Shown here piece by piece: positions 4,602-51,827 of a DNA stretch of 64,000 nucleotides; position 1 is the stretch's first letter; each line of letters begins with the position of its first letter. The position numbers and the translations under genes were made by a program. The notes under the pieces were generated by a model. It had not been told where the DNA came from. It saw only the letters and a list, made by a program, of their open reading frames with translations, and ran no database searches. The stretch is from Bacteroidia bacterium. Lineage in GTDB: Bacteria > Bacteroidota > Bacteroidia > Cytophagales > JAAEPT01. The stretch is taken from assembly GCA_030431525.1 (NCBI GenBank), contig JAUIJC010000024.1, forward strand, positions 1-64,000, written 5' to 3'.

Positions 4602-5365
4602 TTCATCAACTTGCTTGTGTAGATTCGAAAGCCAAAATTGGCGAAAACGTTACGATTGAACCTTTTTCCACCATCGCTGGCGATGTGGAGATTGGTGACG
4701 GCACTTGGATTGGGTCCAACGTAACCATCATGGAAGGCGCTCGAATCGGCAAGAATTGTAAAATATTTCCGGGAGCGGTGATTGCCGCCATTCCACAGGA
4801 CTTGAAGTTTGCGGGTGAGGTCACTACCGTTGAAATCGGTGATGGTACGACCATTCGCGAATGCTGTACAATCAACCGTGGAACCGTGGATAAACTGAAG
4901 ACCGTAATCGGCAAGAACTGCCTGCTTATGGCCTACTGCCACGTTGCTCATGATTGTGTGGTTGGAGACAATGTTGTGATGGCCAACGTGGTTCAGTTAG
5001 CGGGGCACGTTGAGGTAGGAGACCATGCCGTCATTGGTGGCATGACTGCCGTGCACCAATTTGTAAAAATTGGCACCCACACCATGATTGCCGCTCAGTC
5101 TTTTGCCGTAAAAGACGTCCCTCCTTTTGTAACGGCAGGACGTGAGCCAATGGCTTATATGGGAGTGAATTCAACAGGCCTACGTCGTCGTGGATTCTCC
5201 AACGAGCAAATCAACCACATCCAAGACCTCTACCGTACCGTTTTCCAAAAGGGATTGAACTACGGACAGGCCAAGGAAGCTCTTGCTTCAGAATTCGAAG
5301 CTACCGAGGAACAAAAAATCGTGTTGGACTTCTTGGAGTCCTCAAACAGAGGACTTATCAAGTAA
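4598..5365 (+). CDS. lpxA: UDP-N-acetylglucosamine O-acyltransferase LpxA
   Basis: LpxA catalyses the first acyl transfer to UDP-GlcNAc in lipid A synthesis. The 255-residue length is typical. The protein is mostly left-handed beta-helix hexapeptide repeats followed by a C-terminal helical domain. The catalytic His lies in CHVAHDCVVGDN, and the characteristic CTINRGT and GGMTAVHQFVKIG segments are present. The start overlaps the lpxC/fabZ stop by 4 nt. A terminator follows at about 5390, so lpxA probably ends this transcription unit. Confidence 0.97.
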   Translation: MIHQLACVDSKAKIGENVTIEPFSTIAGDVEIGDGTWIGSNVTIMEGARIGKNCKIFPGAVIAAIPQDLKFAGEVTTVEIGDGTTIRECCTINRGTVDKLKTVIGKNCLLMAYCHVAHDCVVGDNVVMANVVQLAGHVEVGDHAVIGGMTAVHQFVKIGTHTMIAAQSFAVKDVPPFVTAGREPMAYMGVNSTGLRRRGFSNEQINHIQDLYRTVFQKGLNYGQAKEALASEFEATEEQKIVLDFLESSNRGLIK

Positions 5366-6844: not shown

Positions 6845-6869
6845 ATCGATAAATGGGAATTCAGAACCA

Positions 6870-7095
6870 AGGACGTTGTCCTTGGCTAACAGATTTCGCC
6901 CTTTCAGGGCTTCCTACGAGCCCTAAGGAGGCGCCTTACCAAAAAAGTGGATGCTAATCCAATGCTGTCAACTTAAGGAATATAACCATAGATATTAGAC
7001 ATAGGGTGATGTCTGCAATTCATTCCTGAGAGCCCTGTAAGGGCGAAATATGTCAGAGTGGGGCGTATAGCCCTACTCTTATTAGATGTTAATCC
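6870..7095. repeat. Intergenic structured repeat region (family E)
   Basis: This gene-free stretch of about 320 bp (6845-7164) contains mirrored blocks: ATTTCGCCCTTTCAGGGCT near 6891-6909 and its near-reverse complement AGCCCTGTAAGGGCGAAAT near 7032-7050. Further small inverted repeats flank them (AAGGACGTTGTCCTT; GGGGCGTATAGCCC). The CCCTTTCAGGG-type words resemble dispersed repeats of Bacteroidota genomes. No ORF or RNA family is recognised in it. Confidence 0.6.
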
Positions 7096-45202: not shown

Positions 45203-46231
45203 TCACCGCTGAACCAACAGCGACTGCCTTACCACCTTGTCGCCATCAGAAATCTGAACCTGATAAACCCCGATGGGTAATTGAGAACAATCCATATAAA
45301 TGCCCTCAACCGTATTCTGCACATCTAGTTTTTTGGCCACCAATCCGCTCACATCAAAAAATTCGATATGTAATTTTTCGCCGTCAAAACCCTCTACGTT
45401 CAAGTGAACTTGGTCTTGGGCGGGATTCGGGTAAATCATGGCATCAATGCCCGCCAATCTTAGCGTACGGCTTACAAAAGCATCCGAACGGAAAACACAT
45501 GAGATGATTTTTTCCTGTCCATTCAGGCCAATTTCCAACAAGGGAACGCCCTGTCCCTTTCCATACCAAACCACATTTGTTCGATGACGAATCAAGGTAT
45601 CATAAGCCACCCACTCCCCTTGTTGCTGGACAAAACTATAGGTGTATTGGGTTTCCTTCACTTCCTCCTGAAGCGCCTTGTAACTGCCCGAAGGAAGCTG
45701 GAGCAATCCCTGCCCTTGGATTTTTGAGGTTCTGAATACTTCCATATCCAGCTTTATGGAATCTTTGCCTTGGGCATATTTCAACCCAAAATGGACCGTA
45801 TCCTTGCTCTCCGCTCCAAAAGCCAAAGGAAAGGCCATCACCTTATCCTTCTTCTGTGGCACTACGGACAACAGGCTTTGATCTGGACCTTCAAGGACAT
45901 AACCGACCACAGCCACTCCTGTTTCACTCACCTCAAGATAGCTTTGGTTCAAGCTTCCCAAAGTGCTTTGCTGAATCAGCTCCGGCCCTTTTTCGGATGC
46001 CTTCGAGGTTCGGGAATACTGCACTGTATCCTTCTGATGAGCCTGCAAGGTGGAAAAATCCCACTCCTGACCGGCACCCGTTTTTTGTACCAAGGACAAG
46101 TCATTGAAAGTTGTATCAACCGCCTTGACGTAACTCATTCCTGACTGAAAGAAATCAGCTCGGGAAAGTATGGTTTGGGCATAGCCCAATAATGGGGCAA
46201 CCGCCAAAAAAGAGAGTAAAAATTTCTTCAT
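45203..46231 (-). CDS. Exported protein with T9SS type A C-terminal sorting domain
   Basis: 342 residues. The signal peptide ends LLGYAQTILS. The central part is beta-rich with no recognised enzymatic motif (EWDFSTLQAHQKDTVQY; DTVHFGLKYAQGKDSIKLDMEVF). The last ~75 residues form the T9SS sorting domain: IYPNPAQDQVHLNVEGF, FFDVSGLVAKKLDV, GVYQVQISDGDKVVRQSLLV. That domain targets the protein through the outer membrane by the type IX system, whose PorX, PorD and PorE-like components are in this window. Confidence 0.88.
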   Translation of the reverse strand: MKKFLLSFLAVAPLLGYAQTILSRADFFQSGMSYVKAVDTTFNDLSLVQKTGAGQEWDFSTLQAHQKDTVQYSRTSKASEKGPELIQQSTLGSLNQSYLEVSETGVAVVGYVLEGPDQSLLSVVPQKKDKVMAFPLAFGAESKDTVHFGLKYAQGKDSIKLDMEVFRTSKIQGQGLLQLPSGSYKALQEEVKETQYTYSFVQQQGEWVAYDTLIRHRTNVVWYGKGQGVPLLEIGLNGQEKIISCVFRSDAFVSRTLRLAGIDAMIYPNPAQDQVHLNVEGFDGEKLHIEFFDVSGLVAKKLDVQNTVEGIYMDCSQLPIGVYQVQISDGDKVVRQSLLVQR

Positions 46232-46293: not shown

Positions 46294-47082
46294 CTATATA
46301 AATGTCTGCATCGTCCTATGCCCACCCCTTCTCAACCACCGTTTTTTCTCCTTAACATTCACTTTCATTTTTACTACGATGAAGAAGGTATCCAACACGA
46401 AAGAGGGATCAATTAAAGTCACACTTGTTGTTTTAAAACTTGCTGTTGCACCATATCTCCATAGACCTTTATTCCTCTCTGCCTTCACTATGACATTTTG
46501 ATTCCAATTCACTGAGTCTGGCACAACCAATTCAAAATACCCATTTGAATCTGTTGTATCCACTGCCAATACATTTCCTTCCATATCTTGTAAGGTGACT
46601 CTCACACCCCTTATCGAAATTCCATCCTTTGATTTTTTAGTTTGTTTATCCCTTTTAAGGCGTTCCTCAACCAATCCCATAATCCTCATATTCTCCTTCA
46701 TCACCTGTTTCTCTCGCAAGTCAGGCATCTGAACTTCCACACCTTTTCCACCCGTATTGATCGTTTGCGCGAAAGACAATTGAATCGTCAGCATATTGAA
46801 AAGAATCACCACTCCAGCCAATGCCAAAAACTTTCGAAATCCCGTCCAAAATGATTTTTCAACAGGATCATTTGAGGCAACCTGACCCTCTCGGAAATGG
46901 CCACAGACCTTTCCTTTTTCTGCTACCAACTCATTGAATTCCTCCTCTGTGGCACGGGTAAAATCATACACCACCTTTTGACAGGAAGCGCAAAATCGAC
47001 CCTTCTCCTCTGGAGTCATTTTGTTCCAGTCCTCGTGGCAGGGTTCGGGGATACGGATGTCTTTGAAACCTATTTCCACCAT
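46294..47082 (-). CDS. Membrane protein with N-terminal Cys/His domain and periplasmic regulatory-type domain (triplet gene 3)
   Basis: 262 residues. The N-terminal ~75 residues carry PEPCHEDWNKMTPEEKGRFC-ASC-QKVVYDF and later KVCGHF, i.e. C-H ... C-x2-C ... C, a likely metal or Fe-S site. A single membrane helix follows (LALAGVVILFNMLTIQLSFAQ), then a carboxypeptidase-regulatory-like beta domain (VRVTLQDMEGNVLAVDTTDSNGYFELVVPD). Its start overlaps the previous gene by 13 nt. It is the last of three paralogues. Confidence 0.7.
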   Translation of the reverse strand: MVEIGFKDIRIPEPCHEDWNKMTPEEKGRFCASCQKVVYDFTRATEEEFNELVAEKGKVCGHFREGQVASNDPVEKSFWTGFRKFLALAGVVILFNMLTIQLSFAQTINTGGKGVEVQMPDLREKQVMKENMRIMGLVEERLKRDKQTKKSKDGISIRGVRVTLQDMEGNVLAVDTTDSNGYFELVVPDSVNWNQNVIVKAERNKGLWRYGATASFKTTSVTLIDPSFVLDTFFIVVKMKVNVKEKKRWLRRGGHRTMQTFI

Positions 47083-47861
47083 CTGGCTGTTGTATGACGT
47101 TGCATATATCCCATCCGTGTTCTCCTCCTCAGCCTAAATCTAGTTTTATTAGGCCTAAAGCGTTTCTCCATTTCAAGGGATAGAAAGGCTGTATCGCTAA
47201 TGAACTGCTTGATTCTTTTGAACCTAGTGGCACCTCTTGGATAAATAGATTTTTGCTTTTCTTTTTCAGCTACCACAACTAGCTCATGACTCCAATCAAC
47301 GGTGTCAGGAACTACCAACTCAAACTTGCCATCTTTTCCCGTATTCGTTTGAGCTAGAATATTTCCTTCGCCATCCTCTAGTGTAATTACTGCACCCACA
47401 ACCCCATTTTTCACCGAGGAAATTTGGCTATATCTCTTCTCAACTAATTCTCCCTTAATCGTCTGATTCCCTTTCAGCACTCGTTTCTCCCTCAAATCAG
47501 GCATCTGCACCTCAACTCCCTTCCCTCCTGTATTCACCGTTTGGGCAAATGACGATTGAACCGTCAGCATCTTGAAAAGAATCACAGCCCCAGTTGAAGC
47601 CACATACTTGCGAAAAGTCGTCCAAAATGGTTTTTCAACAGGCTCATTTGAGGCAATCTGATCCTCTCGGAAACGACCACAAACCTTACCTTTTTCTGCC
47701 ACCAACTCATTGAATTCCTCCTCCGTGGCACGGGTAAAATCATACACCACCTTTTGGCAGGAAGCGCAAAATCGGCCCTGCTCTTCTGGGGTCATTTTGT
47801 TCCAGTCCTCGTGGCAGGGTTCGGGGATACGGATGTCTTTAAATCGAATGTTGTTGTGCAT
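47070..47861 (-). CDS. Cys/His membrane protein (triplet gene 2)
   Basis: Start chosen at ATG 47861 (MHNNIRFKDIRIPEPCHE); it lies 1 nt after the stop of gene 1, while the longer ORF start overlaps that gene. It shares PEPCHEDWNKMTPEEQGRFC-ASC and KVCGRFREDQIASNEP with gene 3, a membrane helix ending SFAQT, and a regulatory-type domain with ITLEDGEGNILAQTNTGKDGKFELVVPD. The tail RFRLRRRTRMGYMQ is highly basic. The N-terminal ~75 residues of genes 2 and 3 are nearly identical, implying recent duplication or gene conversion. Confidence 0.7.
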   Translation of the reverse strand: MHNNIRFKDIRIPEPCHEDWNKMTPEEQGRFCASCQKVVYDFTRATEEEFNELVAEKGKVCGRFREDQIASNEPVEKPFWTTFRKYVASTGAVILFKMLTVQSSFAQTVNTGGKGVEVQMPDLREKRVLKGNQTIKGELVEKRYSQISSVKNGVVGAVITLEDGEGNILAQTNTGKDGKFELVVPDTVDWSHELVVVAEKEKQKSIYPRGATRFKRIKQFISDTAFLSLEMEKRFRPNKTRFRLRRRTRMGYMQRHTTARWWK

Positions 47862-47862
47862 A

Positions 47863-48612
47863 TCACCAACTAGTTGAAAAAGCATGCTCCCTTCGAAAAA
47901 GTCGTTTTCTCTCCACTACCTTCATTATAAAGTTGACTTCAATGAAATCCTCCAAAGACACCTCCTTTTCAAGGGTTCTATAGTGATATCTATAACCACC
48001 TCCAGAACTTATTTCACTCTCTTTCTCTACTACTACAAAAAGCTCCTGACTATAATTGACAGTATCTGGCACCACCATTTCATACTCCCCATCAGAATTA
48101 GTTTGGGTCTGAGCCAAGACATTTCCATCCAAATTCTTTAAGCTCACCTGAACTCCTGAAAGGCCTACCAATTCTTCTCTCCACCTAAGCTTCTCGACCT
48201 TTCCCCTAATCACCTGATTTCCTTTGAACACCTTCTTTGCATTCAAATCAGGGAATTCCACTTCAACAGTTCTCCCATTCTCCCTCACAGATTGTGCTAC
48301 AGCTGATTGAAGGGAAAGCATTTTAAAGAGAAATACAGCGCTTGTCGAAGCGAGATATTTTCTAAACCTCGTCCATACCAAAGGCTTCACAGGTTTTCGG
48401 GGAGCAATTTGATCCTCTCGAAAGCGACCACAAACAGGCCCCTCCTTCTCAACTATTTCATTGTACTCCTCCTCCGTTGATCTCGAAAAATCATAAACGT
48501 TCTTTTTACAGGCTGAACAAAAACGGCCTTTCTCAAACGGGGTCATGTTATCCCAATTTTCATGACAGGGATTTGGAAGATGGATATCCTTAAATCTTAT
48601 GGGTTTTTGCAT
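47863..48612 (-). CDS. Cys/His membrane protein (triplet gene 1)
   Basis: 249 residues, MQKPIRFKDIHLPNPCHENW. The same architecture is present: C-H ... GRFCSACKKNVYDF ... PVCGRFRED, a helix (YLASTSAVFLFKMLSLQSAVAQ), then VQVSLKNLDGNVLAQTQTNSDGEYEMVVPD. It is the most divergent of the three and the first transcribed. It is divergent from the DUF1016 gene with a 105-nt gap. The N-terminal Cys/His domain is one I recall upstream of TonB-like or regulatory domains in Bacteroidota, but its function is unknown. Confidence 0.7.
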   Translation of the reverse strand: MQKPIRFKDIHLPNPCHENWDNMTPFEKGRFCSACKKNVYDFSRSTEEEYNEIVEKEGPVCGRFREDQIAPRKPVKPLVWTRFRKYLASTSAVFLFKMLSLQSAVAQSVRENGRTVEVEFPDLNAKKVFKGNQVIRGKVEKLRWREELVGLSGVQVSLKNLDGNVLAQTQTNSDGEYEMVVPDTVNYSQELFVVVEKESEISSGGGYRYHYRTLEKEVSLEDFIEVNFIMKVVERKRLFRREHAFSTSW

Positions 48613-51059: not shown

Positions 51060-51827
51060 ATGGATATCCCAGTTTCCCAAAAATTGGATGCCCTGCAACA
51101 GTTGCAGGAAATCGACTCCCGTCTTGACGCCCTTCACAAGCTTCGTGGCGACCTCCCTGAAGAGGTGAGCGACCTTGAAGATGAGATTGCTGGCTTGGAA
51201 ACCCGTGTAGGGAAATTCGAGCAAGACATCAAAGATGCCGAAGATGGCATTGAAGGTTACCGCAACGGCATCAAGGAAGCCGAGGCCTTGATGGAAAAAT
51301 ACAAAGGGCAACAACTGGAAGTCCGCAACAACCGTGAGTACGATGCCATCACCAAGGAAATCGAACTCCAAGAGTTGGAAAAGCAGGTTTGCGAGAAGCG
51401 CATCAAAGAAGGCTATGCCCGCATTGATGGCATCAAGGAGCGCATCAGCGAAACCAACGAGAAGCTTTCTGGCCGTAAAGAGGACCTAAAGCACAAGAAG
51501 AAAGAATTGACTGAGTTGGTTGAGGAGAGCAAGGAAGAGGAAGATAAGCTTTTGGCTGAGCGCGAGAAGGCTGGTAAGAAAATCGAGGAGCGTCTCTTCA
51601 ACTCTTACAACAAGATTCGCGACAACTCCCGCAACGGTCTTGCTGTTGTAAAAGTAGCTCGTGGTGCTTGTGGCGGTTGCTTCAACATCGTTCCTCCTCA
51701 GCGTCAGGCTGATATCCGTGAGCGTAAGAAAATCATCGTTTGCGAGCACTGCGGACGTATTTTCTCTGACGCCGAAGCGGTAGAGATTCCAGAAGAGCCA
51801 AAGAAAAAAACGACTCGTAAGAAATAA
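51060..51827 (+). CDS. Coiled-coil protein with C4 zinc ribbon (CdsZ/DUF164-type)
   Basis: 255 residues. Residues 1-180 are nearly all coiled coil (DLEDEIAGLETRVGKFEQD). The C-terminal zinc ribbon is CGGCFN...CEHCGR, then a basic tail (KKKTTRKK). Members of this family are nucleic-acid-associated proteins of unclear role. The leader has the family B palindrome. Start ATG 51060. Confidence 0.85.
   Translation: MDIPVSQKLDALQQLQEIDSRLDALHKLRGDLPEEVSDLEDEIAGLETRVGKFEQDIKDAEDGIEGYRNGIKEAEALMEKYKGQQLEVRNNREYDAITKEIELQELEKQVCEKRIKEGYARIDGIKERISETNEKLSGRKEDLKHKKKELTELVEESKEEEDKLLAEREKAGKKIEERLFNSYNKIRDNSRNGLAVVKVARGACGGCFNIVPPQRQADIRERKKIIVCEHCGRIFSDAEAVEIPEEPKKKTTRKK

Follow-up and report, generated by a model that had tools for sequence, protein, structure and literature searches.

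The window (the whole 64,000-nt stretch of DNA analysed) carries three neighbouring reverse-strand genes, designated A, B and C, whose products share an N-terminal domain with four cysteines (Cys4 domain), a signal-peptide-like hydrophobic segment and a transthyretin-like outer domain. The genes, their parts and the next gene downstream were located as follows:

47863..48612, - strand: gene A, 249 aa; Cys4 domain, signal-peptide-like segment and transthyretin-like domain
48388..48612, - strand: gene A Cys4 domain, residues 1-75 (Cys16, 32, 35, 61)
48295..48369, - strand: gene A signal-peptide-like segment, RFRKYLASTSAVFLFKMLSLQSAVA, residues 82-106; cleavage predicted between AVA and Q, from sequence and family statistics
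47923..48216, - strand: gene A transthyretin-like (CarboxypepD_reg-type) domain, residues 133-230
47070..47861, - strand: gene B, 263 aa; architecture as gene A
47637..47861, - strand: gene B Cys4 domain, residues 1-75
47544..47618, - strand: gene B signal-peptide-like segment, residues 82-106; putative site at its end, SFA before Q
46294..47082, - strand: gene C, 262 aa; architecture as genes A and B
46861..47082, - strand: gene C Cys4 domain, residues 1-74; 89% identity to the gene B domain
46768..46842, - strand: gene C signal-peptide-like segment, residues 81-105; putative site at its end, SFA before Q; highest hydrophobicity of the three
45203..46231, - strand: protein with a T9SS C-terminal sorting domain; same strand as the triplet, 62 nt beyond its downstream end

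The preliminary description of the locus as three neighbouring paralogues, overlapping or spaced by 1 nt, was confirmed: 1 nt lies between genes A and B, and genes B and C overlap by 13 nt. For gene B, the mechanically defined open reading frame runs from 47885, and the ATG at 47861 is the start that fits the family; the cysteines of gene C are numbered one lower than those of gene A. The triplet and the downstream gene (45203-46231) may share a transcript, and a YhcG/DUF1016 gene lies upstream in divergent orientation. Promoter and terminator scans gave results near chance. The genome from which the window derives contains 124 T9SS-tail matches. Two other features of the window were recorded: a protein with a coiled coil followed by a C4-type zinc ribbon (Zn_ribbon_9), encoded near the triplet at 51060-51827 (+), and an Rfam Acido-Lenti-1 RNA at 6867-6911 (+), whose 40.5 bits barely exceeded the gathering score of 37.

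The outer domains had been described as carboxypeptidase-regulatory in type. In Pfam, this assignment stayed below threshold (CarboxypepD_reg matches, E 0.001-0.02); in the AlphaFold model of gene A, the C-terminal part resembles transthyretin-like folds in the PDB, in agreement with these weak matches.

A scan of ~85,000 species genomes, which used the gene A domain and is biased toward close relatives, returned 48 loci, all with record names assigned to Bacteroidota. With profile searches, the domain was found in 45 of 297 genomes sampled phylum-wide and in 131 of the 395 sampled within the class, with up to 10 matches per genome; the recurrence in the class is beyond chance. Tandem arrays are frequent in the family. 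The window's genome contains three copies of the domain, and a fourth candidate (L004, E 0.9) was rejected as noise, the surrounding open frames being unrelated. Three plasmid records carry the domain, and searches of phages and viral contigs returned no relatives. The domain is N-terminal: it starts within a few residues of the frame's first start codon in most members and within a few dozen at most in the rest (each frame was read from its first start codon, since starts chosen near the domain would be circular). In one relative (L151, 4971-5741) the annotated start at 5124 falls inside the Cys4 domain of an open frame that begins at 4971. For a Hymenobacter canadensis plasmid relative (L152, 4001-4201), the gene table of the record, itself known to have gaps, lists nothing at this position, and the domain copies at L095 and L108 are broken by in-frame stops.

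The motif had first been read as C-H...C-x2-C...C, with unconserved Cys positions among homologues named as the sign that would speak against it. All four cysteines were kept in 140/140 distinct full-length relatives, gathered with a profile that was built from Cys-containing sequences and with truncated hits excluded. Of these 140, 84 have the His that follows the first Cys; it is no conserved ligand in the family, so that the motif reduces to Cys4. The spacing C-x15-C-x2-C was found in 135/140 members, the last gap being mostly 24-29 residues. A stand-alone short hit of 79 aa (L082) has Ser at the fourth Cys position.

The Cys4 domain modelled alone gave a mean pLDDT of 86.6, and residues 1-70 of the full-length gene A model reached block means of 87-96. 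Foldseek of the domain model against the PDB gave no fold match at E below 6, and the domain profile found nothing convincing among PDB sequences (best E 0.03, an HMG-box stretch). The copies of Pfam and NCBIfam searched hold no model that matches the N-terminal domain, and the idea of an undescribed domain was upheld to this extent. Among the Pfam matches on 59 domains, the treble-clef finger was the commonest, with 6 members at E 0.05, and was not adopted as a classification; the matches were all weak and scattered. A literature search, with most subscription papers outside its reach, found no account of the domain. The Cys4 family is real and widespread, and without a model in the libraries searched. 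Four invariant cysteines in the reducing cytosol suggest a metal site, and the domain probably binds metal, most likely Zn or else an Fe-S cluster.

The earlier proposal of a conserved inner and a diversifying outer module held across 28 adjacent pairs, with a median identity of 0.67 for the domain against 0.28 for the exported part (cargo). Synonymous differences were broadly similar in the two parts (medians 0.65 and 0.715), so protein-level selection accounts for much of this contrast. The near-identity of genes B and C over their first ~75 residues, also reported earlier, was reproduced (89% identity, against 41% past residue 140), and at synonymous sites this pair differs by 0.28 in the domain, compared with 0.76 in the cargo (Fisher p 1.4e-7). 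Because the synonymous sites are homogenised too, the near-identity of the B and C leaders points in part to gene conversion. Eight pairs in other arrays show the same tendency at p below 0.01, unadjusted (L024, L011 twice, L084, L060, L015, L072 and L038), and two show the opposite one, including an L011 pair with near-identical cargo and diverged leader; cargo alignments are rough at such divergence. Homogenisation of leaders in the window and in several arrays is what would be seen if the Cys4 domain were a buffering or structural add-on with no export role, spread together with the signal peptide by gene conversion. That explanation is improbable, given the invariant cysteines and the comparison between loci, where domain identity stays at 55-60% and that of signal peptide and cargo falls to ~25%, leaving the Cys4 domain as the most conserved part.

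The Cys4 domain is joined to the hydrophobic core by a linker of mostly 10-24 residues. At the end of the hydrophobic segment, 85 of 140 members have an SPase-I-like site and 33 a lipobox (together 118/140), against per-window backgrounds of 5.4% and 0.8%, respectively, elsewhere in the same proteins; 22/140 have no site under the pattern used, and several of these end in near-matches. An A, G or S precedes the first Gln past the hydrophobic core in 82/102 cases, compared with 71/435 elsewhere (p 6e-35; count not conditioned on AxA). The 19-residue peak mean hydropathy is 1.33 in gene A, 1.27 in gene B and 2.03 in gene C. The family median is 1.43; approximate control sets, picked with simple rules among neighbouring ORFs, have medians of 1.66 for signal peptides and 2.18 for polytopic transmembrane helices. 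A Lys breaks the hydrophobic stretch in genes A and B; the gene C segment is hydrophobic enough for a transmembrane helix. Of the single membrane helix proposed originally, the hydrophobic segment is thus present, and in genes A and B it is weak and signal-peptide-like; the proposed topology, N-terminus inside and C-terminus outside, was supported. By its sequence anatomy the family has the conserved extension before a canonical cleavable signal peptide that characterises extended signal peptides, and we consider it likely that the leader is one.

These results bear on the initial interpretation of the proteins as permanent sensors or transducers in the membrane: uncleaved single-pass (type II) proteins, with a Cys4 domain reading cytosolic metal or redox state and an outer domain meeting partners of the TonB system or envelope. 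Such proteins would have the supported topology, a segment like that of gene C would suffice as their helix, and relatives have outer domains similar to portions of TonB-dependent transporters. The low hydropathy of most segments and the SPase I or lipobox motifs at the segment end in 118/140 members speak against this, and so do the T9SS sorting domains and the 33 lipoboxes of relatives, which imply that the cargo is freed from its Sec segment; moreover, no conserved regulator gene stands beside the arrays. The permanent transducer is thus disfavoured and, on sequence evidence, unlikely, with gene C especially still a candidate.

Among 131 full-length proteins, Pfam matched CarbopepD_reg_2 in 64, CarboxypepD_reg in 59, the T9SS tail in 14, TonB_C in 11 and Plug in 3, and SusC/RagA profiles matched 69. 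When ten proteins were examined singly, 8 had SusC/RagA hits, confined to profile positions 1-120 (NTE and TonB box) or 147-209 (plug) of 981; the barrel was never reached. TonB-box-like motifs were found in 26/86 proteins, with 4.1 expected on shuffling. In TonB_C-type members picked by motif, a lipobox ends the hydrophobic segment in 7/7. In an Aureibacter plasmid array, one TonB_C protein starts with an ordinary signal peptide, and two neighbours combine a Cys4 leader with a related TonB_C domain (one pair shares 45% identity across 106 residues). A link to TonB, which had been proposed for checking at the outset, was supported by these outer domains. Most exported parts are either TonB C-terminal domains or fragments of SusC-type TonB-dependent transporters that lack the barrel (NTE/TonB box, plug). 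Proteins A, B and C have the transthyretin-like domain only, with no TonB_C domain (Pfam) and no T9SS sorting domain (Pfam, NCBIfam); as they also have no clear TonB box, the TonB link holds at the level of the family.

Zinc-binding anti-sigma factors have an overall layout like that of the family proteins. An anti-sigma function, with a cytosolic zinc-binding (ZAS-like) domain, one membrane segment and an outer sensor domain, would explain this likeness, but it is very improbable. The motif H-x3-C-x2-C is present in 4/140 members, and the Pfam matches listed include no anti-sigma or FecR family. The association with sigma or anti-sigma genes that had been suggested was not borne out either: of 71 adjacent genes on the same strand, classed by the starts of their sequences, 1 was sigma-like, which is no pattern of adjacent ECF sigma partners, and none among the window neighbours scanned. 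The sole case is a sigma-factor-like gene at L038 (2560-3825, +), directly upstream of a three-gene array. Inspection of the neighbours of family loci revealed no constant partner gene. In several Chryseobacterium loci (L005, L006, L008 and L018), a gene of ~150 aa lies downstream and overlaps the stop of the family gene by 4 nt, and L035 has a protein similar to its product. At L122 (5338-5979, -), a neighbour has a family-like lipobox segment and lacks the Cys4 domain at its start.

Taken together, we favour, on balance and from sequence, a cytosolic Cys4 leader with a metal site, carried on a cleaved extended signal peptide and combined with exchangeable cargo. In the cytosol, a small Cys4 domain would form from the first ~70 residues and most likely hold Zn or else an Fe-S cluster. 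The linker and Sec signal peptide would follow, and cleavage by signal peptidase I (II in lipoprotein members) would release the outer domain to the periplasm, the outer membrane or, where relatives bear a T9SS tag, the cell surface. Signal peptide and Cys4 domain would stay behind together as a membrane-tethered cytosolic remnant. The leader might slow, gate or sort Sec export according to its own metal or redox state or to a partner; as the outer domains are mostly barrel-less TonB/SusC modules, what it controls would probably be when or how such modules leave. Export control, proposed by analogy, is the weakest step of this explanation because the search of neighbours yielded no gene that could be the leader's partner, and we hold it tentatively, at somewhat below an even chance.

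A conserved, folded-looking domain that would remain after cleavage, and on which the strongest constraint falls rather than on the cargo, could also itself be the signal, with an intramembrane protease freeing it to the cytosol to report that export succeeded. This purely inferential scheme is doubtful, since no partner, protease or DNA-binding feature was found for it. Equally doubtful is a full export checkpoint, in which a cytosolic metal-binding domain in the signal peptide would decide the exit of TonB modules and the cut-off leader would report back from the membrane.

Among known systems, the favoured reading, a Cys4 leader on a cleaved extended signal peptide, was compared with the ESPR (PF13018), an element of 25 residues on type V secretion proteins (PMC8151025). 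In both, a conserved N-terminal extension precedes a canonical signal sequence. The family leader differs in its ~70 residues, its four cysteines and its lipoprotein, T9SS and TonB-related cargo in Bacteroidota; ESPR was absent among the Pfam families listed for the 59 domains and 131 full-length members, and no type V domain was among the cargo families listed. From these sequence comparisons, the family seems to follow the ESPR principle most closely, yet to lie outside ESPR membership. The extension of some ESPR proteins makes export across the inner membrane slower or helps the protein through the periplasm (PMC8151025), and by analogy the Cys4 domain may gate or time the export of envelope modules.

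The NTE of SusC is PF13715, of unknown function, and precedes the TonB box VDEVVV; with a SusC protein lacking it, no growth on levan was detectable after 24 h (PMC7782687). Matches to the SusC/RagA NTE, TonB box or plug are common among the family cargoes, but the family members are small proteins behind a Cys4 leader, and in the ten proteins examined the matches end by position 209 of 981. TonB is resembled by the members with TonB_C (11/131), and Aureibacter relatives are annotated as TonB (energy transducer). TonB uses an inner-membrane anchor, which the 7 motif-picked TonB_C-type members with a lipobox would lose. T9SS type A cargo (PF18962/TIGR04183) shares its sorting domain with 14/131 relatives. 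Ordinary T9SS cargo is not known to have a Cys4 domain ahead of the signal peptide; the family has one, and A, B and C carry no sorting domain.

As the Pfam and NCBIfam copies searched hold no model for it and an annotated start (L151) lies inside it, the Cys4 domain could receive a name, and the starts of its genes could be corrected. NTE-like proteins that stand alone after a leader of their own would offer a further route to studying the NTE. If the favoured reading is true, Bacteroidota possess a second type of extended signal peptide that is widespread, exceeds the ESPR in size and is probably metal-binding, and this leader feeds barrel-less SusC/TonB pieces, lipoproteins and T9SS cargo.
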